Of a DNA stretch of 54,158 bases, positions 2,051-9,367 are shown one piece after another. The DNA is from an uncultured Rhodospirillales bacterium. Its GTDB lineage: Bacteria > Pseudomonadota > Alphaproteobacteria > Acetobacterales > Acetobacteraceae. Under the pieces are notes generated by a model that did no database searches, was not told the origin of the DNA, and saw only the letters and a program-made list of their open reading frames with translations. Numbering within the stretch: the first letter of the stretch is position 1; each line of letters starts with the position of its first letter. Made by a program: the position numbers and the translations under genes. The DNA is taken from assembly GCA_903843125.1 (NCBI GenBank), contig CAIMOR010000119.1, forward strand, positions 1 to 54,158. Direction: 5' to 3'.

Positions 2051-3493
2051 CTACAGGACCGGCTCGCCCACCCCGGCAATGCGCAGTTCGCCGCCCCACT
2101 CCGAGAGCATGTCGCCGCCCGGGATGCTCTCGGCCGCGTTGTGCTGCGGCTGCACCAGCACATCGGGCCGCAGGGCGCGGATCGTGTCCACCGCGCTGCC
2201 GCCGCCCAGCGCCGTCACCAGGTCCACCAGCGGCAACTCCGCCAGCGCCGCCGCCTCCGGGCTGTCCAGCGGGCCGGCCACGCCGACCACCAGCCGGTCG
2301 CACCAGCCGCGGGCCTGCTCCAGCAGCCCCTGGCCGGCGACGCTGGCGAAATGCCCGGCCTCCCCGGCCAGGAAGCCGATCCGCAGCCCACGCCGGCGCC
2401 AGCGCTCGGCGCGCTCCACCGCCTGGCCCCGGCCGCTCAGCTTGCGCGCTGCCAGCAGGCCGGGGGTCAGCATCTCCAGCAACTCGTCTTCCCGCACCAC
2501 GGCGATGCCGGTCTTGCCCATGGCCACGCCGGCCGCCAGCGCCGCCAGCCGGGCGATCAGCGGCAGCGCCAGTCCGGCCGCCATGCCGGCCGCCGCCACC
2601 GCCACCACCGCATCGCCGGCGCCGGCCGGGTCGATCAGCTCGGCCGCGTCGCAACGGAGTTGCCGCACCTCGTCGATGCCCGGCACCGCGCCGCCCTGCA
2701 CCAGGGTCAGCCCTTCCTCGCCGCGCACCACCAGCACGGCGCCGAATCCATGCACCGCGCGCAGCGTGCGCGCCGCGGCGGCCACCTCGGCGGCGGTGCC
2801 CACCGGCAGGCCGGTCGCCTCGGCCAGCTCCTCGCGGTCCGGAATGATCAGGTCGGCGCCGGCGAAGCGGGCGTGGTCGCCGCCCTTCGGGTCCACCACC
2901 ACCTTGCGGCCACCGGCATGGGCGGCGGCGATCAGCCGCGCCGGGGTATCGCCGGTCAACACGCCCTTGCGATAGTCACTCAGCACCATCACCGCCGTGG
3001 CGGCAGCGGCGTCGCTGGCAATGCGGATCAGCCGGTCCGCCAGGCGGGGGTGGATCGGCGCCACCTGTTCCTGGTCGGCCCGCAGTATCTGCTGCCCCGC
3101 GGCGACGAAGCGGGTCTTCGTCGTGGTCGCCCGGCCACCCTGCACCAGCAGCCAGGGCTCCACGCCCGGCTGGCCACCGATCAGGCCGGTCAGGTCGCTG
3201 CCGGCCTGGTCGTCACCGACAACGGAGACGAAGGCGACGGCCGAGCCCAGCGCGGTCAGGCAGCGCACCACGTTGCCGGCGCCCCCCGGCAATGCCAGCT
3301 CGCGCTCCACCGAGAGCACCGGCACCGGCGCCTCCGGGCTGATCCGCAGCACCTGGCCGTAGACGTAGCGGTCCAGCATGGCGTCGCCCACCACCAGCGC
3401 GGTGCCGCGGCGCAGTTGGCGCACGGCATCGGCCAGTTGGGCCTGGGTTGGTTCGAGAGCGAGAGGGGAGGGTCCGGGCGCGGGGCCGTGCAT
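2051..3493 (-). CDS. hldE: HldE-like D-glycero-beta-D-manno-heptose-7-phosphate kinase with degenerate adenylyltransferase domain
   Basis: HldE normally phosphorylates heptose 7-phosphate and then adenylylates heptose 1-phosphate to make ADP-heptose for the LPS inner core. Residues about 30-350 form a PfkB/ribokinase fold: V-G-D-A-M-L-D-R-Y near the start, the Gly-rich G-G-A-G-N at 70-74, D-P-K-G-G-D at 201, and D-P-A-G-A-G-D with the catalytic Asp near 294. Residues 365-480 align with the cytidylyltransferase-like half (E-Q-A-R-x(4)-D-R-L-V-V-G-V; R-P-D-V-L-V), but the H-x-G-H nucleotide motif and the terminal S-T-T-N-I-I motif are absent. The start at 3493 (480 residues) fits the family; an in-frame ATG at 3511 is an alternative. 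It may act only as the kinase. Confidence 0.88.
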   Translation of the reverse strand: MHGPAPGPSPLALEPTQAQLADAVRQLRRGTALVVGDAMLDRYVYGQVLRISPEAPVPVLSVERELALPGGAGNVVRCLTALGSAVAFVSVVGDDQAGSDLTGLIGGQPGVEPWLLVQGGRATTTKTRFVAAGQQILRADQEQVAPIHPRLADRLIRIASDAAAATAVMVLSDYRKGVLTGDTPARLIAAAHAGGRKVVVDPKGGDHARFAGADLIIPDREELAEATGLPVGTAAEVAAAARTLRAVHGFGAVLVVRGEEGLTLVQGGAVPGIDEVRQLRCDAAELIDPAGAGDAVVAVAAAGMAAGLALPLIARLAALAAGVAMGKTGIAVVREDELLEMLTPGLLAARKLSGRGQAVERAERWRRRGLRIGFLAGEAGHFASVAGQGLLEQARGWCDRLVVGVAGPLDSPEAAALAELPLVDLVTALGGGSAVDTIRALRPDVLVQPQHNAAESIPGGDMLSEWGGELRIAGVGEPVL

Positions 3494-3844: not shown

Positions 3845-4558
3845 TCACGCCACCAGGAAGCCCATGCGGTGGGCCTCCAGCACCAGGCAGGTCAGGTCGC
3901 CGCCGAAGCAGGCGCCGGTATCGATGCCGATCCGGTTCTCCCGCACCACCGGCAGCGCGGCCGGGGTATGGCCATGCACCACGATACCCGGCAACTCGCC
4001 AGGCCAGGACAGGAAGGGTTCGCGGATCCACAGCAGGTCGAAGGGGTCCTGTGCATCGAGCGGCACCTCCGGCCGCAGCCCGGCATGGGTGAACAGGTAG
4101 TCGCCGGCGCCCCACAGCAGCCGGCAGCGCCGCAGCATGTCCAGGTGCGTCTCCGGCAGGTGGCGGTGCCAATGCGGGTCCGCAGCCTCGGCATCGTAGC
4201 TCGCCAGCGTCGCCGTGCCGCCATTGTCCAGCCAGTAGGGCAGCGCGCCGGGGTGGGCGTCCGGCGCGGCGGCGTCCAGCAGCATGGTCTCGTGGTTGCC
4301 CATCAGGTTGACCACCTGCGCCCCGGCCACCGGCGGCGGCCCCAGCAGTCGCTCGAGCACCGCCGCGCTGTCCGGGCCGCGGTCGATGTAGTCGCCCAGG
4401 TGCACCACGGTGATGCGCGGACCCGGCCGCTGCTCGGCATCCTCGGCGATGCGGGCATGCAGCACCGCCAGTTGCGCGGCGCAGCCATGCACGTCACCCA
4501 CGGCATAAATGCGCTGGCCGGGCGGCAAGGCGCCCGGCGCTAAGTCTTCGTTCAGCAT
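3845..4558 (-). CDS. PPP-family metallophosphatase (bacterial serine/threonine phosphatase type)
   Basis: This is a 237-residue cytoplasmic phosphoesterase of the calcineurin-like PPP family, probably a protein phosphatase or a related diadenosine tetraphosphatase-like enzyme. The whole metal-binding signature is visible in order: G-D-V-H-G at residue about 20, G-D-Y-I-D-R-G-P-D-S around 54, G-N-H-E-T around 86, then F-T-H-A-G and V-H-G-H-T in the C-terminal half, so both metal sites look complete. The start at 4558 gives MLNEDLAPG; there is no in-frame alternative that keeps the first motif well inside the protein. It is transcribed away from the EAL-like pair that begins at 4665, and the 106-base gap must hold both promoters. 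The substrate cannot be read from sequence. Confidence 0.9.
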   Translation of the reverse strand: MLNEDLAPGALPPGQRIYAVGDVHGCAAQLAVLHARIAEDAEQRPGPRITVVHLGDYIDRGPDSAAVLERLLGPPPVAGAQVVNLMGNHETMLLDAAAPDAHPGALPYWLDNGGTATLASYDAEAADPHWHRHLPETHLDMLRRCRLLWGAGDYLFTHAGLRPEVPLDAQDPFDLLWIREPFLSWPGELPGIVVHGHTPAALPVVRENRIGIDTGACFGGDLTCLVLEAHRMGFLVA

Positions 4559-4664
4559 GAACCGCGAGTTTACCTGAGCAGGAACCGCTCCGCACCGCGC
4601 CGAGCGACACCGCGCCAGGATAGCGCATGAACGTGACATCGACCGCCCCCGGCCTCGCCAGGGC

Positions 4665-5873
4665 ATGACCAACCCAGCCATGCTGGCCAGGATGGGTACG
4701 CCCCAAACCGCCAACCGTGGCGCCCTGCTGGAGGCCGCGCGCCGCGCCGTCGCCGCCGGGCTCAACGGCCGGGTGGCGCTGCGCCTGGCCGGTGTGCCCG
4801 CCGCCAGCCATCGCCGCCGGGTGCTGAAGGTATTGCTGCAGGACGCCGCGCAGACCGGCGGCGGCCAGGTGTTCGAGACCACCGCCGGTGAGATGCTGCT
4901 GCTGGGCACCCAGGCCTCGGCCGCCAGCCGTGCCACCCAAGCCCTCGGCCGTCTGGCCGGCGGCAGCCCGCTGACGCTGGAAACCTGGCCGCTGCCGCAG
5001 GAGGCGCCGCGCCTGATGGCCTGGGTGGAGGCGGCAACCCTGCTGCCGCCGGCCAGCCCGCCAGCCGCCACGCCGGGCATCGGCGGGCTGGACGCGCTGC
5101 TGGCTGCGTTGCCGCCCGAGACGGTCCTGCGCCGCCGCGCCATCCTGCGCCTCGGCCACGAAATGGCCCTGCCCGGGCGGCTGCTGGAACTCTCCCGCCC
5201 GGCGCTGGCGGCCGAGCTTGGCGCCATGGCCGAGGATGCCGACCTGCGCCGCCATGCCAAGGACGCGCTGATCCGCCGCCTGCTGCCGCGGCTGGCCGGA
5301 CCGGGGCCGTTGCGCCCCCAGGGCACGCTGCTGCTGCCGCTGCCGGTCGATTTCATCCCTGGCCCGGCGCCGCGCCCCGGGTTGGTCGGCGTGCTGCCGC
5401 TGCTCTGCGCCGCCGACCCGGATGCGCTGGAGGAACGCCGCGCCGCGCTGGCCGACCAGGGCTGGGGCCTGGCCATCGCCGGCCTGGATGCCGCCGCGCT
5501 GCGGCTGGTGGTGGCGGACGCGATCCCGGCCGACTGGTTGCTGCTGCGCTGGTCGCCAGCGCTGGCGGCACTGGACCCGCCGCTGGCCCCGGCCACCGCC
5601 GCGCGCTGCCTGCTGGTGGGCTGCGATACCCCGGAGGCGCTGGCCTGGGGCACCGGCCGCGGCATCCAGCGCTTCGTCGGCCCGCATGTAGAGGCGGTGC
5701 TGGCCGCCGCCCGGCTGGCGGGCTGCCGCGAGGCGGCCGGCTGCACCCAACGGCAATGCGGCGAACGTGCCGCCGCCACCGCCACCGCCGCCCGCACCGC
5801 CTGCCGCAACCACGCGCTGCTGGACGCCACCCTGCCGCTGCCCAAGCCCTTGCCGGCGGGTGCCGCCGCATGA
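4665..5873 (+). CDS. Degenerate EAL-like protein with Cys-rich tail (paralog 1)
   Basis: I do not know a named family for this 402-residue protein. Its region 255-345 reads like a worn EAL domain: G-W-G-L-A-I-A-G-L-D then A-D-W-L-L-L-R-W-S-P-A-L matches the strand that carries D-D-F-G-T-G and V-D-Y-L-K-I-D in active enzymes, and C-L-L-V-G-C-D-T-P-E-A-L matches the V-A-E-G-V-E-T strand. None of the metal-binding or catalytic residues is kept. The N-terminal part (20-95) resembles that of the next gene, and both share L-R-W-S-P-A-L, so they are paralogs. The tail has four Cys (about 354, 360, 365, 380) that could bind a metal or cluster. The ATG at 4665 follows AGGG; later ATGs at 4680 and 4692 are possible. 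It overlaps the next gene by ATGA. Confidence 0.75.
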   Translation: MTNPAMLARMGTPQTANRGALLEAARRAVAAGLNGRVALRLAGVPAASHRRRVLKVLLQDAAQTGGGQVFETTAGEMLLLGTQASAASRATQALGRLAGGSPLTLETWPLPQEAPRLMAWVEAATLLPPASPPAATPGIGGLDALLAALPPETVLRRRAILRLGHEMALPGRLLELSRPALAAELGAMAEDADLRRHAKDALIRRLLPRLAGPGPLRPQGTLLLPLPVDFIPGPAPRPGLVGVLPLLCAADPDALEERRAALADQGWGLAIAGLDAAALRLVVADAIPADWLLLRWSPALAALDPPLAPATAARCLLVGCDTPEALAWGTGRGIQRFVGPHVEAVLAAARLAGCREAAGCTQRQCGERAAATATAARTACRNHALLDATLPLPKPLPAGAAA

Positions 5874-7048
5874 GCGCGAACCTGCTCAACCCGCCGCAGG
5901 CCGCCAACATGCTGACCGCGGCGCTGGCCCGCACCGGCCCGCAGGATGCGCTGGCGCTGGCACAGCTGGTGCGCGAAGCCGTCGCCGCCGGGGCCGAGCG
6001 CCAGGCGCTGCACCTGCGCATGTCCGGCCTGAACGACCGGTTGAAGGCCGAACACCATCACCGCCTGGTGCGGGAGGCGCTGGAGCCCCTGCTGCGCCCG
6101 AGCCGGTCCCGGCTGTTCGAGTTGCCGAACGGCGACCTGGTGGCAGTGGTGCCGCCGCGCAGCAATCACGTGGACGTTGCCCGCGCCGCGCTGGACGTGC
6201 TGCTGCACGCCGATGGCGAACTGCCGGGCCAGGCCTATACGGTGCTGCGCCTGCCGCAACAGGCCGCCGCGCTGCTGGCCGTGGTGGAGGATTCGCTCGG
6301 CCCGGCGAATGCCACCCCGCCGCCGGCGCCAAGCGGCAGCTTCAACGCCGCCGGGCTGGCCGAGCTGGAGCGCGTGCTCGGTTCCGCCAGCCTGGCCGCG
6401 CATCTGCGTCAGCGCCCGGTCTGCCGGCTGCGCCCGGGCGGCATGGGGCCTGAGCCGGAATGGCAGGAATACCGGGTCGCGACGGAGGAACTCTGCGCCA
6501 CGCTGCAACCCGGTGCCGCGCCGGCCGGCACGCCCTGGCTGCATCGGCGCCTGAAGCGCCTGCTGGACCGCCGGCTGCTGGCCGAACTCGCCCGGCCCGA
6601 GGATATCCGCCAGATGGGCCGCATCGGCCTTTCGCTGACCGTGCAGGGCCTGACGGATCCGGAGTTCCTGCGCCTGGACAGCCTGCTGGGCCAGGACGCC
6701 CGCCGCCAGGTGACGCTGGGGTTGAGCGTGGCGGAACTGCTGGCCGACCCCGAGGGCTTCACCTTCGCCGCCAGCTTCTGCCGCACCCGCGGCTACCGGC
6801 TGGCGCTGGAACAGGTGGAGGCGGCGACGCTGACGCTGCTGCCCATCGACGGGCTGCCGGTGGACCTGCTGAAGCTGCGCTGGTCGCCGGCGCTGACCCT
6901 GCTGGGCCCCCGCCTGACCGAGGCGCTGCCCAGCCACCCCGACGGGGTGGTGCTGACCGGCGTCGACCGTGCCGCCGCGATCGGGTGGGGCTGGGAGCTG
7001 GGCATCACGCTGTTCCAGGGCAGCCTGGTGGGCGGCCGCGGCCGCTAG
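5870..7048 (+). CDS. Degenerate EAL-domain protein (paralog 2)
   Basis: This 392-residue protein has an N-terminal region (about 20-140) shared with the preceding gene and a C-terminal region (245-388) that follows the layout of EAL c-di-GMP phosphodiesterases: G-Y-R-L-A-L-E-Q-V-E at 309, L-P-V-D-L-L-K-L-R at 329, V-V-L-T-G-V-D near 360 and G-I-T-L-F-Q-G-S-L-V-G at 378. In active enzymes these read G-Y-x-L-A-L-D-D-F-G-T-G, L-P-V-D-x-L-K-I-D, V-V-A-E-G-V-E and the Q-G-Y-x-x-x-x-P end. Here D-D is E-Q and K-I-D is K-L-R, and the E-x-L-x-R signature is gone, so catalysis is very unlikely. Its ATG overlaps the previous stop (ATGA), which suggests equal production and perhaps a heterodimer. It might bind a nucleotide or a protein instead of hydrolysing c-di-GMP (inference). 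Confidence 0.8.
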   Translation: MSANLLNPPQAANMLTAALARTGPQDALALAQLVREAVAAGAERQALHLRMSGLNDRLKAEHHHRLVREALEPLLRPSRSRLFELPNGDLVAVVPPRSNHVDVARAALDVLLHADGELPGQAYTVLRLPQQAAALLAVVEDSLGPANATPPPAPSGSFNAAGLAELERVLGSASLAAHLRQRPVCRLRPGGMGPEPEWQEYRVATEELCATLQPGAAPAGTPWLHRRLKRLLDRRLLAELARPEDIRQMGRIGLSLTVQGLTDPEFLRLDSLLGQDARRQVTLGLSVAELLADPEGFTFAASFCRTRGYRLALEQVEAATLTLLPIDGLPVDLLKLRWSPALTLLGPRLTEALPSHPDGVVLTGVDRAAAIGWGWELGITLFQGSLVGGRGR

Positions 7049-7155
7049 TCAGGACCGTGGCCTGGAGTCCGCTCGACGCTGCCCGATGCGATCGCGGGCG
7101 GTCCGGCGGGAAGCTTCACACCGCCCCGCTTGGCGCCGTCGGCGCGAGCCGGCAT

Positions 7156-7926
7156 ATGCAGCGCATGGAAACCCCCGCCCTGCTGGTCGAGAACCTGGTG
7201 AAGCGCTACCGGCCGGAGGCGCGGCCGGCGGTCGACGGGCTGAGCTTCGTGCTGCCGCGCGGCCAGGTGCTGGGGTTGCTGGGTGGCAATGGCGCCGGCA
7301 AGACCACCACCATCGCCATGCTGCTGGGCCTGCTGGTGCCCAGCTCCGGCCGCGTCGTGGCGCTGGGCCACGACATGGCCAAGGACCGCTTCGCGGCGCT
7401 GGCGCGGATGAACTTCTCCTCGCCCTACCTGGCGTTGCCAGCCAAGCTGACGGTCCGGGAGAACCTGCGCGTCTATGGCCACCTGTACGACGTGCATGGC
7501 CTGGAGGTGCGCATCGCTGAGCTCTCCGCGCAGCTGCAGCTCGCCGATTTCATCGACCGCGCCGCCGGCGACCTCTCGGCGGGGCAGAAAACCCGCGTGG
7601 CGCTGGCCAAGGCGCTGATCAACACGCCCGACCTGCTGCTGCTGGACGAACCCACCGCGAGCCTGGACCCCGATACCGGGGATTGGGTGCGCAGCTGGCT
7701 GGAACGCTACCGGACGGAGACCGGCTGCGCGATCCTGCTGGCCAGCCACAACATGGGCGAGGTGGAGCGGCTGTGCGACCAGGTGCTGATGCTGAAGCAG
7801 GGCGAGGCGGTGGACCGCGGCAGCCCGGCCGACCTGCTGGCGAAATACGGCCGCGACGACATGGAGCAGGTGTTCCTCGACATCGCCCGCGGGCGCCCCC
7901 TGGGCCAGCACGGCGTGCCGGCATGA
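7156..7926 (+). CDS. ABC transporter ATP-binding protein, ABC-2 exporter type
   Basis: This is a 256-residue ATPase subunit that powers the membrane partner encoded directly after it. Walker A is G-G-N-G-A-G-K-T-T near residue 50, the signature is L-S-A-G-Q-K-T-R around 144, Walker B is L-L-L-L-D-E-P-T-A near 165, and the switch His is in A-S-H-N-M near 196. The length and the single-ATPase, single-permease arrangement are like those of polysaccharide, lipid or drug exporters (NodI/DrrA types). The ATG at 7156 is used; a second ATG at 7165 is equally close to weak ribosome sites. The stop overlaps the permease start by ATGA. The 107 bases upstream hold no gene. Confidence 0.93.
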   Translation: MQRMETPALLVENLVKRYRPEARPAVDGLSFVLPRGQVLGLLGGNGAGKTTTIAMLLGLLVPSSGRVVALGHDMAKDRFAALARMNFSSPYLALPAKLTVRENLRVYGHLYDVHGLEVRIAELSAQLQLADFIDRAAGDLSAGQKTRVALAKALINTPDLLLLDEPTASLDPDTGDWVRSWLERYRTETGCAILLASHNMGEVERLCDQVLMLKQGEAVDRGSPADLLAKYGRDDMEQVFLDIARGRPLGQHGVPA

Positions 7927-8729
7927 CCCGCGCCTCGCTGCGGCGCATCTACGCGCTGATCTACCGCCACACCTCGCTGTACCGGCATTCCTGGCCGCGC
8001 ATCGTCGAGCTGGCCTATTGGCCGGTGCTGGAGATGCTGGTCTGGGGCCTGACCACCAAGTACCTGGCCAGCGGCGGCGCGCCCGGTGCGGCCGGCATGA
8101 CCGTCGCGGCGCTGCTGGGCGGCGCGCTGCTGTGGGAGATCACGCTGCGCGCCCAGATGGGCATGACCTTCTCCTTCATGGAGGAGATCTGGTCGCGCAA
8201 CCTCGGCCATATCAGCGTCTCCCCGCTGCGGCCGTGGGAGTTCGTGCTGGGGCTGATGGGCATGTCCGTGCTGCGGCTGAGCGTCGGCATCACGCCGGCC
8301 ATGCTGCTGGCCTGGTTGCTCTATGGCTTCGGCATCTTCTCCATGGGGCCGGTGGTGGTGCTGTTCTTCGTGGCGCTCGCCATCACCGGCTGGGCGGTGG
8401 CGCTGGGCGTGACCGCGCTGATCCTGCGCCATGGCGCCGGCGCCGAGGCGCTGGCCTGGAGCGTGGTGTACGGCCTGACGCCCTTCGCCTGCGTGTTCTA
8501 CCCGCTGGCCTCGCTGCCGTGGTGGGTGCAGCCGGTGGCGCGGGCGCTGCCACTGGCGCATATCTTCGAGGGCATGCGCCAGGCGCTGGGCGGCGGCGGC
8601 GTGGCCTGGGGCCATCTCGGCTGGGGCTTCGCGTTGGCGTTCTTCTGGCTGGGCGTCATGGCGCTGGTGTTCCGGGCGCAGTTCCAGGGCGCGCGTGTGC
8701 GCGGCGCCCTGCTCAACATCGGCGAGTAG
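7923..8729 (+). CDS. ABC-2 type transporter permease
   Basis: This is a 268-residue inner-membrane protein, the channel partner of the ATPase encoded just before it; the ATG overlaps the ATPase stop by four bases, which indicates coupled translation. About six hydrophobic segments are visible, with the short cytoplasmic N-terminus followed by R-I-V-E-L-A-Y-W-P-V-L-E-M and the conserved ABC-2 C-terminal region S-L-P-W-W-V-Q-P-V-A-R-A-L-P-L-A-H. That pattern is the NodJ/DrrB-like ABC-2 fold. The substrate is unknown; nothing nearby names it. A histidine phosphatase gene follows 8 bases later in the same direction, so the three genes may form one operon. Confidence 0.92.
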   Translation: MTRASLRRIYALIYRHTSLYRHSWPRIVELAYWPVLEMLVWGLTTKYLASGGAPGAAGMTVAALLGGALLWEITLRAQMGMTFSFMEEIWSRNLGHISVSPLRPWEFVLGLMGMSVLRLSVGITPAMLLAWLLYGFGIFSMGPVVVLFFVALAITGWAVALGVTALILRHGAGAEALAWSVVYGLTPFACVFYPLASLPWWVQPVARALPLAHIFEGMRQALGGGGVAWGHLGWGFALAFFWLGVMALVFRAQFQGARVRGALLNIGE

Positions 8730-8737
8730 GAGACCTG

Positions 8738-9367
8738 ATGCCCGAGCCGACCCGGCTGTTCCTGATCCGCCACGCCCTGGTGGAGCCCAGCGCCCGCGCC
8801 ATGCTGTACGGCAACATGGATGTGCCGCTGTGCCAGCTGGCGCTGCGGGAGGAAGCCGCGCTGTACCGCTGGCTGGCGGCCCGGCTGCCGCGGCCGGCGC
8901 ATTGGGTCACCTCCCAGCTCGGTCGCACCCGGGCGACGGCCGCCGCCATCTTCGCCGCCGGCTACCCGGCGCAACCACTGGCCACCGAGCCCGACCTGGC
9001 GGAGCAGCACCTGGGCGACTGGCAGGGCATTCCGCACGAAGCCCTGGTGGAGAAGCTGCGCCATCCGCCGCACCCGTTCTGGCCGCACGCCGCCGAGGAA
9101 CAACCGCCTGGCGGCGAGAGCTTTGCGCATGTCCGCGCCCGCGTCGGCCCGGTGCTGGAACGGCTGGCAGCGCAGCATGCGGGCGAGGACGTGGTCCTGG
9201 TCGCCCATGGCGGCAGCATCCGCGCCGCGTTGGCGCATGCGATGGACCTCAGCGGGCATCAGGCCCTGGCGTTCAGCATCCGCAACCTCGGCCTGACCCG
9301 GCTGGAGAAGCACGGACCGGATTGGCGCGTGGCGGCGGTGAACGAGGAACCCTGGCTGCTGGATTGA
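8738..9367 (+). CDS. Histidine phosphatase (phosphoglycerate mutase/CobC-like)
   Basis: This is a 209-residue member of the histidine phosphatase superfamily, related to alpha-ribazole phosphatase (CobC) and phosphoglycerate mutase-like enzymes. The phospho-accepting His is in L-I-R-H-A-L near residue 11, where most relatives have R-H-G. The second His is in V-A-H-G-G-S-I-R near 155. Q-L-G-R-T-R-A-T-A near 66 and E-Q-H-L-G-D-W-Q-G near 88 fit the family. The ATG at 8738 has GGAG 7 bases upstream. It lies 8 bases after the ABC permease, in the same direction. No cobalamin gene is nearby, so the CobC role is not supported by context; a general small-phosphate ester phosphatase is equally likely. 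Confidence 0.85.
   Translation: MPEPTRLFLIRHALVEPSARAMLYGNMDVPLCQLALREEAALYRWLAARLPRPAHWVTSQLGRTRATAAAIFAAGYPAQPLATEPDLAEQHLGDWQGIPHEALVEKLRHPPHPFWPHAAEEQPPGGESFAHVRARVGPVLERLAAQHAGEDVVLVAHGGSIRAALAHAMDLSGHQALAFSIRNLGLTRLEKHGPDWRVAAVNEEPWLLD

Follow-up and report, generated by a model that had tools for sequence, protein, structure and literature searches.

An overlapping pair of degenerate GGDEF-EAL-like proteins in Acetobacteraceae and its relatives across the Alphaproteobacteria

The 54,158 nucleotides of contig CAIMOR010000119.1 (assembly GCA_903843125.1), from an uncultured Rhodospirillales bacterium of the family Acetobacteraceae, are hereafter called the window. Two overlapping genes of this window, A and B, encode paralogous proteins with predicted EAL folds, which have lost catalytic residues of the EAL phosphodiesterases that hydrolyse cyclic diguanosine monophosphate (c-di-GMP). 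The order and the overlap of the two genes are conserved in related bacteria, members of the family co-occur with GGDEF proteins, and an hldE gene recurs in their vicinity. The reading that we prefer, and hold with balanced confidence, is that A and B form a non-catalytic, equally produced pair, which would act by protein contact in a network involving c-di-GMP and the cell envelope.

Predicted folds and paralogy

AlphaFold models were built from alignments of 51 rows for A and 55 rows for B, in which the window sequence was joined by 50 of the 53 A rows or 54 of the 57 B rows; B rows below 300 bits were dropped, as were A rows below 90 bits or starting late. The mean predicted local distance difference test scores are 90.7 for A and 89.7 for B. 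With VIA-align, the model of A matches the EAL domain of PdeA (Z 14.2, root-mean-square deviation (rmsd) 3.6, 217 aligned positions) and that of B the EAL domain of LapD (Z 17.6, rmsd 3.1, 213 aligned positions; rows within 1 Z are tied). In these models, both proteins have an EAL-type barrel. An earlier note on this DNA, made from the sequence alone, had proposed such a fold, and structure prediction combined with fold search supports it.

The best Foldseek matches of the two models (E-values down to 3e-9 for A and 2.5e-12 for B) are GGDEF-EAL chains whose alignments span almost the full length, namely PaMorA (4rnf), LapD (6pwj and 6pwk), PA0575 (5m3c) and PA0861 (5xgb). These end-to-end alignments have low template modelling scores (0.28-0.42 of the query) and rmsd values of 12-20, which we take to mean that the two domains are placed differently with respect to each other. 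The N-terminal halves show a GGDEF-like order of helices and strands, in a part of the models that VIA-align barely tests. When the window profiles are compared with GGDEF using hhalign, the N-terminal match is not significant (E 0.23 or worse). The Pfam GGDEF profile (PF00990) finds no match in A, in B or in ten relatives from elsewhere in the class Alphaproteobacteria, and the GG[DE]EF signature is absent from A, B and all of the 60 such sequences collected (hereafter the class relatives). At the place presumed for this signature, the class relatives carry an NxD pattern (N in 56 and D in 59 of the 60). Judging from the models, the N-terminal halves look like degenerate GGDEF domains, a point that the earlier note had overlooked.

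In a pairwise BLASTP comparison, A and B resemble each other in their C-terminal parts only (38% over 96 residues, E 2e-12). A profile derived from 42 A-family rows spans all of B (175 bits, profile positions 6-379), so that A and B are full-length paralogues. The paralogy that had been proposed, including a shared N-terminal region, thus holds at the profile level, although the N-terminal likeness is invisible to pairwise BLASTP. The string LRWSPAL is common to the two proteins, as had been noticed. The Pfam EAL profile (PF00563) matches B at E 6e-6 with 26.2 bits, under its gathering cut-off of 31.3, and a scan of A gave no match. At E ≤ 0.1, this profile recognizes 12 of the 33 B and 8 of the 28 A homologues; among ten class relatives scanned, one is above the cut-off (locus L196, 41.5 bits) and nine are below. 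As for selection, the ratios of nonsynonymous to synonymous substitution rates against three close relatives are 0.25-0.33 for A and 0.10-0.17 for B, and near 0.6 for both against a more distant one (L096, about 60% identical). In one genome (G067, loci L058 and L135), the B gene has an internal TGA and is split into two open reading frames, which would reflect either a broken gene or a sequencing error.

CsrD is a degenerate GGDEF-EAL protein that serves as a specificity factor of RNase E and steers RNA turnover. It is the best, though weak, NCBIfam match for six of ten class relatives (E 0.002-0.11), and a similar role of A and B may be envisaged. This idea appears improbable: the matches reach 11-17 bits (16.6 for the best relative) against a cut-off of 663, the CsrD model NF008281 is unmatched by A and B, and the likeness may merely reflect a shared degenerate EAL sequence.

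Loss of catalytic residues

The accessible part of the study of PA3825 (PMC5301497) assigns Glu39, Asn98, Asp130 and Asp160 to metal 1, and Asp161 and Asp183 to metal 2, where Glu217 contacts calcium. Metals in both sites, M1 and M2, are needed to activate the nucleophile, according to the same part. For BlrP1, the available text of PMC3989770 describes Lys323, involved in water activation, and Asp325 on one strand, with Asn239 at metal 1. In the portion of PMC3032553 at hand, the arginine that follows the EAL motif of LapD (R450) occupies a central place in the c-di-GMP site. In our alignments, the residues named for PA3825 and BlrP1 were equated with the Glu of EAL, the Asn of NxS, the Glu of LExTE, the Asp pair of DDFGTG, the KID Lys and Asp, and the AEGVE Glu. 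From LExTE onwards, columns were obtained by aligning the profiles with 12 EAL proteins from the class in which DDFG is intact. The match is moderate, with hhalign E-values of 2e-5 (class set), 0.002 (Acetobacteraceae B) and 0.004 (Acetobacteraceae A). Visual inspection of the class alignment served to place the columns of the EAL Glu and of the Asn.

Among the 60 class relatives, the EAL Glu, the second Glu, the first Asp and the Lys are kept in all, the Gln of QG in 59 and the Asn in 54. None of them has the second Asp, the KID Asp or the AEGVE Glu. From these counts, the first metal site persists and the second has disappeared. In B numbering, the positions fixed across the class are Q182, E200, E284, D314 and K335 (60/60 each) and N257 (54/60). 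The arginine after EAL (Arg204) is replaced by Ser in 49, by Ala in 9 and by His in one of the class relatives, and is present in a single one. Its loss provides the main evidence against plain c-di-GMP binding.

The Acetobacteraceae have gone further. In 55 B sequences of their type, the window included, the EAL Glu remains in 23, the Asn in 17, the second Glu in 4, the first Asp in 25, the Gln in 20, the Lys, the second Asp and the KID Asp in 3 each and the AEGVE Glu in one. Other positions are invariant in the same 55 sequences, namely R44, R79, R227, R235, R278, R307 and W373. B of the window keeps three of the nine catalytic positions, E200 (EAL Glu), K335 (KID Lys) and Q383 (Gln of QG), and A keeps none. 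Among 14 sampled Acetobacteraceae A sequences, the EAL Glu, the first Asp, the Lys and the KID Asp are each found in 7 and the second Glu in 8; because about half of the sampled sequences keep these residues, A of the window is among the most eroded. The loss of the catalytic residues that the earlier note had described is therefore right for the DDFGTG and KID motifs, absent from both proteins, and too sweeping for B, where E200, K335 and Q383 persist.

A and B are thus catalytically stripped, and activity would be absent. Catalysis can be rejected on the basis of the alignments, the metal-2 ligands being lost in 60/60 class relatives. A residual or altered phosphodiesterase activity might still be imagined from the EAL fold and from the metal-1 ligands and water-activating Lys kept in the relatives. 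It is extremely improbable, given this complete loss and the joint need for M1 and M2 in the PA3825 text cited above. Another possibility is that the one-metal pocket, with altered base-reading residues, became a receptor for another nucleotide or phosphorylated ligand. The pocket pattern fixed across the class and the replacement of Arg204 by Ser or Ala speak in its favour. Since the pocket is eroded in Acetobacteraceae, window included, we regard it as rather unlikely.

Pairing, coupling and distribution

Pairing was counted in 61 Acetobacteraceae-type contigs (L085-L145), five of which end too close to B to be judged (L092, L098, L139, L140 and L145). The gene immediately before B is A in 55 of the 56 testable contigs. 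Constant adjacency, as earlier envisaged, is therefore the rule without being universal, for B stands alone in that set once (L141) and once in a second, partly overlapping set (L065). The tight ATGA coupling is real: a four-base overlap is present in the window, and 45 of the 55 pairs have a start codon for B lying across the A stop with the identical -1 shift. Long conservation of this coupling argues for equal production of the two proteins and, by extension, for a heterodimer; it is the best evidence for both. A and B would thus be made in about equal amounts through translational coupling and would assemble as an A:B heterodimer.

The cysteine-rich tail of A, for which a metal or redox site had been suggested, does exist. 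A strict pattern recovers its four Cys in 31 of the 53 A homologues, and inspection by eye adds 5 with four Cys at other spacings. It is lacking in 17 of the 53, among them Belnapia and Roseicella, which retain the pair; the Belnapia pairs even keep the overlap. Since these homologues keep the pair without it, the tail is accessory. Metal or redox sensing through the tail, to which its presence in a majority of A homologues would lend some weight, is quite improbable as an explanation of the pair, and such a role as the core function is, from the sequences, unlikely.

The family is not confined to Acetobacteraceae. Genomes matching B amount to 48 of 100 in the family sample, 60 of 200 in the order sample (all in that same family), 88 of 289 in the class sample, which includes weak matches with E-values as poor as 1e-4, and 8 of 299 in the phylum sample, all within the class. 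A restriction to Acetobacteraceae is hence rejected. Neighbourhoods were retrieved for 60 of the 88 matched class genomes. Twelve of these loci carry two copies in tandem, ordered as in the window; the stretches retrieved for the other 48 show one copy, two of them (L216 and L248) with little or no sequence upstream. The idea of a lineage-specific system must be abandoned in view of the class-wide matches and of these 12 pairs outside Acetobacteraceae. The earlier note had also considered that homologues might prove catalytic and single: many are indeed single, yet the full catalytic set is found in 0/60.

A quick tree of 100 sequences (14 Acetobacteraceae A, 14 Acetobacteraceae B, 12 class-pair A, 12 class-pair B and 48 single) places each of the four paired groups on one side of a branch. 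Uniting Acetobacteraceae A with class-pair A is not rejected (approximately unbiased test, p-AU 0.477), and the pair may have arisen once or twice. Contigs L117 and L139, titled Acidobacteria and Solirubrobacterales, bear an Acetobacteraceae-type pair or B gene; these titles probably reflect misassigned metagenome bins. A plasmid search with B gave no match. Searches with two class relatives returned nine Azospirillum records only, annotated as hypothetical protein or unannotated, and the large replicons of Azospirillum (L283) bear distant relatives of the family. Hybrid proteins of Azospirillum in which the EAL domain is conserved and the GGDEF highly degenerate are mentioned in the available part of PMC5845226.

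Genomic company and proposed role

GGDEF proteins are present in 207 of the 289 class genomes. They occur in all 88 genomes matching the family, which itself is found in none of the 82 genomes without GGDEF (hypergeometric P 1.6e-16, uncorrected for relatedness). The sample thus lends no support to a function of the family where diguanylate cyclases are lacking (0/82). Genome size alone fails to explain the co-occurrence, because 20 of 49 GGDEF-bearing genomes smaller than 2.0 Mb carry the family. In three genomes of 1.4-1.7 Mb (G515, G420 and G296), the pair provides the only EAL matches, beside 3-4 GGDEF matches each; of these six EAL matches, one exceeds the Pfam cut-off.

This company brings in the main rival, in which A and B would be receptors of the LapD or FimX type, a dead EAL domain binding c-di-GMP or pGpG and signalling to a partner. 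The closest structural match of B, within the ties given above, is LapD, which is also the best PDB sequence match of one class member (E 1e-4). The co-occurrence with GGDEF (88/88, relatedness uncorrected) and the metal-1 ligands and Lys retained in the relatives agree with such a role. Against it stand the loss of the arginine equivalent to R450 in 59/60 class relatives and of most pocket residues in the window proteins (0/9 in A, 3/9 in B). A receptor of this type, which we consider unlikely but worth keeping in mind, suits the proteins of the window less well than their ancestor.

Neighbouring genes suggest a connection with the envelope. In the window, the order is HldE-like (minus strand), phosphoesterase (minus strand), A, B, ATP-binding cassette (ABC) ATPase, ABC-2 permease and histidine phosphatase (Table 1). 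Near 105 Acetobacteraceae-type loci, an overlapping set with many genomes counted twice and many short contigs, HldE was found 69 times, the permease 60 times and the histidine phosphatase 48 times; a hand count of the 61 contigs L085-L145 gives 38 with HldE and 38 with the permease nearby. Outside Acetobacteraceae, an HldE-like protein is encoded near 17 of the 60 class loci (107-343 bits, 13 families), where a rough estimate would predict about 0.25. The other neighbours of these loci include an ABC ATPase (14 loci, 11 of them above 280 bits), the permease (10), the phosphoesterase (8), the histidine phosphatase (7) and the heptose genes GmhA (5) and HldD (4). A RegB-like sensor kinase is also encoded near 16 of the 60 (L195-L254), in 13 cases downstream on the opposite strand. 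The HldE-like protein of the window is matched well in its kinase domain and weakly in its adenylyltransferase domain (33 bits, residues 390-472). Inverted repeats were searched in 4550-5900 and 6900-7200, where one weak pair only, inside A, was seen.

Table 1. Coordinates of the A/B pair, its domains and its neighbours in the window
Feature	Position	Strand	Remarks
Gene A, degenerate GGDEF-EAL-like protein	4665..5873	+	402 aa
Gene B, degenerate GGDEF-EAL-like protein, paralogue of A	5870..7048	+	392 aa
ATGA stop/start overlap (ATG of B on TGA of A)	5870..5873	+	Same -1 register in 45/55 related pairs
A, N-terminal GGDEF-like domain without GGDEF motif	4701..5033	+	About residues 13-123; DSSP topology and full-length Foldseek alignments
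A, EAL-like barrel	5073..5699	+	About residues 137-345; model and structure alignment
A, LRWSPAL at the position of the EAL KID motif	5544..5564	+	Residues 294-300
A, Cys-rich tail, C354 to C380	5724..5804	+	Strict pattern in 31/53 homologues
B, N-terminal GGDEF-like domain	5939..6298	+	About residues 24-143; LPNGDL at the GGDEF place (judged by eye)
B, EAL-like barrel	6338..7036	+	About residues 157-389; model and structure alignment
B, LRWSPAL at the position of the KID motif	6875..6895	+	Residues 336-342; K335 is the retained Lys, R337 takes the place of the Asp
HldE-like heptose kinase/adenylyltransferase	2051..3490	-	Neighbour; start approximate
Calcineurin-like phosphoesterase	3845..4558	-	Divergent neighbour
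ABC ATPase	7156..7926	+	Downstream neighbour
ABC-2 permease	7923..8729	+	Downstream neighbour
Histidine phosphatase (CobC-like)	8735..9367	+	Downstream neighbour; start approximate

Considering these data together, the following course may be proposed. The ancestral alphaproteobacterial protein would probably have retained metal site 1 but already lacked site 2, and therefore the ability to hydrolyse c-di-GMP. Decay would then have reached site 1 in the Acetobacteraceae, where the family-specific Arg and Trp positions would have become fixed. A and B, made equally through their coupling, would most likely pair with each other. Because the catalytic and metal sites are lost, the pair would most likely be a scaffold or a regulator inside the c-di-GMP network, working through protein-protein contact. 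Its output would be directed toward the cell envelope, as judged from the heptose/lipopolysaccharide genes and the ABC-2 exporter nearby.

Several observations weigh against this proposal. The near-full retention of metal site 1 in the relatives suggests, at the level of sequences, that a ligand still mattered to the ancestor. Pairing is not universal, with a single copy in 48/60 loci outside Acetobacteraceae; within the Acetobacteraceae-type sets, L141 has about 5.6 kb upstream of B without A even at the most permissive setting, and L065 also has B without A. No heptose gene occurs in the stretch of 43 of the 60 class loci. The GGDEF co-occurrence ignores relatedness, and 28 of the 88 matches, some of them weak, were not inspected for the family pattern.

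Neither the fold nor the concept of dead GGDEF-EAL regulators is new. LapD resembles the A/B family in its GGDEF-EAL order, as far as the models of A and B tell, in its dead catalytic residues, and in being the top structural match of B and the closest PDB sequence to one class relative. It differs by its arginine after the EAL motif, absent from the family in 59/60 class relatives, and by being one chain, not a coupled pair. LapD also has membrane and periplasmic parts. CsrD shares with the family the weak NCBIfam likeness described above, at scores far under the cut-off. The catalytic phosphodiesterases PdeA, MorA and PA3825 have the same barrel fold and strand order and differ by the catalytic positions, with metal-2 ligands lost in the 60 class relatives and 0/9 and 3/9 positions kept in A and B of the window. 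FimX, involved in type IV pili, has a degenerate EAL domain of high structural similarity to B, which acts through partner contacts according to the accessible text of PMC3989770; in the case of A and B, no pilus or PilZ gene is found among the immediate neighbours in the window, pilus genes not having been searched elsewhere.

In the open-access literature, the titles and abstract beginnings among the matches listed contain no description of the A/B family. The words degenerate and inactive are absent from the available part of PMC9756655, in which c-di-GMP genes were surveyed across five orders of the Alphaproteobacteria. In the literature searched, there thus appears to be no description of the family across the class, of its retention of metal 1 only, of the coupled pair or of the GGDEF company. 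Members above the Pfam EAL cut-off, such as that of L196, could be miscounted as phosphodiesterases.

Known dead GGDEF-EAL proteins such as LapD, FimX and CsrD are single cases. A and B belong to a family spread through the class, whose members share a single, fixed pattern of loss. In the sample, this family occurs only in GGDEF-encoding genomes; it is paired in some lineages, and at least 13 families of the class have an hldE-like gene in its vicinity. It is tempting, if speculative and on the doubtful side, to imagine an ancient pseudoenzyme family whose one-metal, Arg-less pocket would sense a nucleotide, perhaps not c-di-GMP. In such a picture, the A/B heterodimer would link cyclase output to heptose/lipopolysaccharide synthesis and envelope export, and would have been kept even in genomes of 1.4-1.7 Mb with the pair as sole EAL-like match. 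Through this family, the role of dead EAL domains becomes experimentally approachable.

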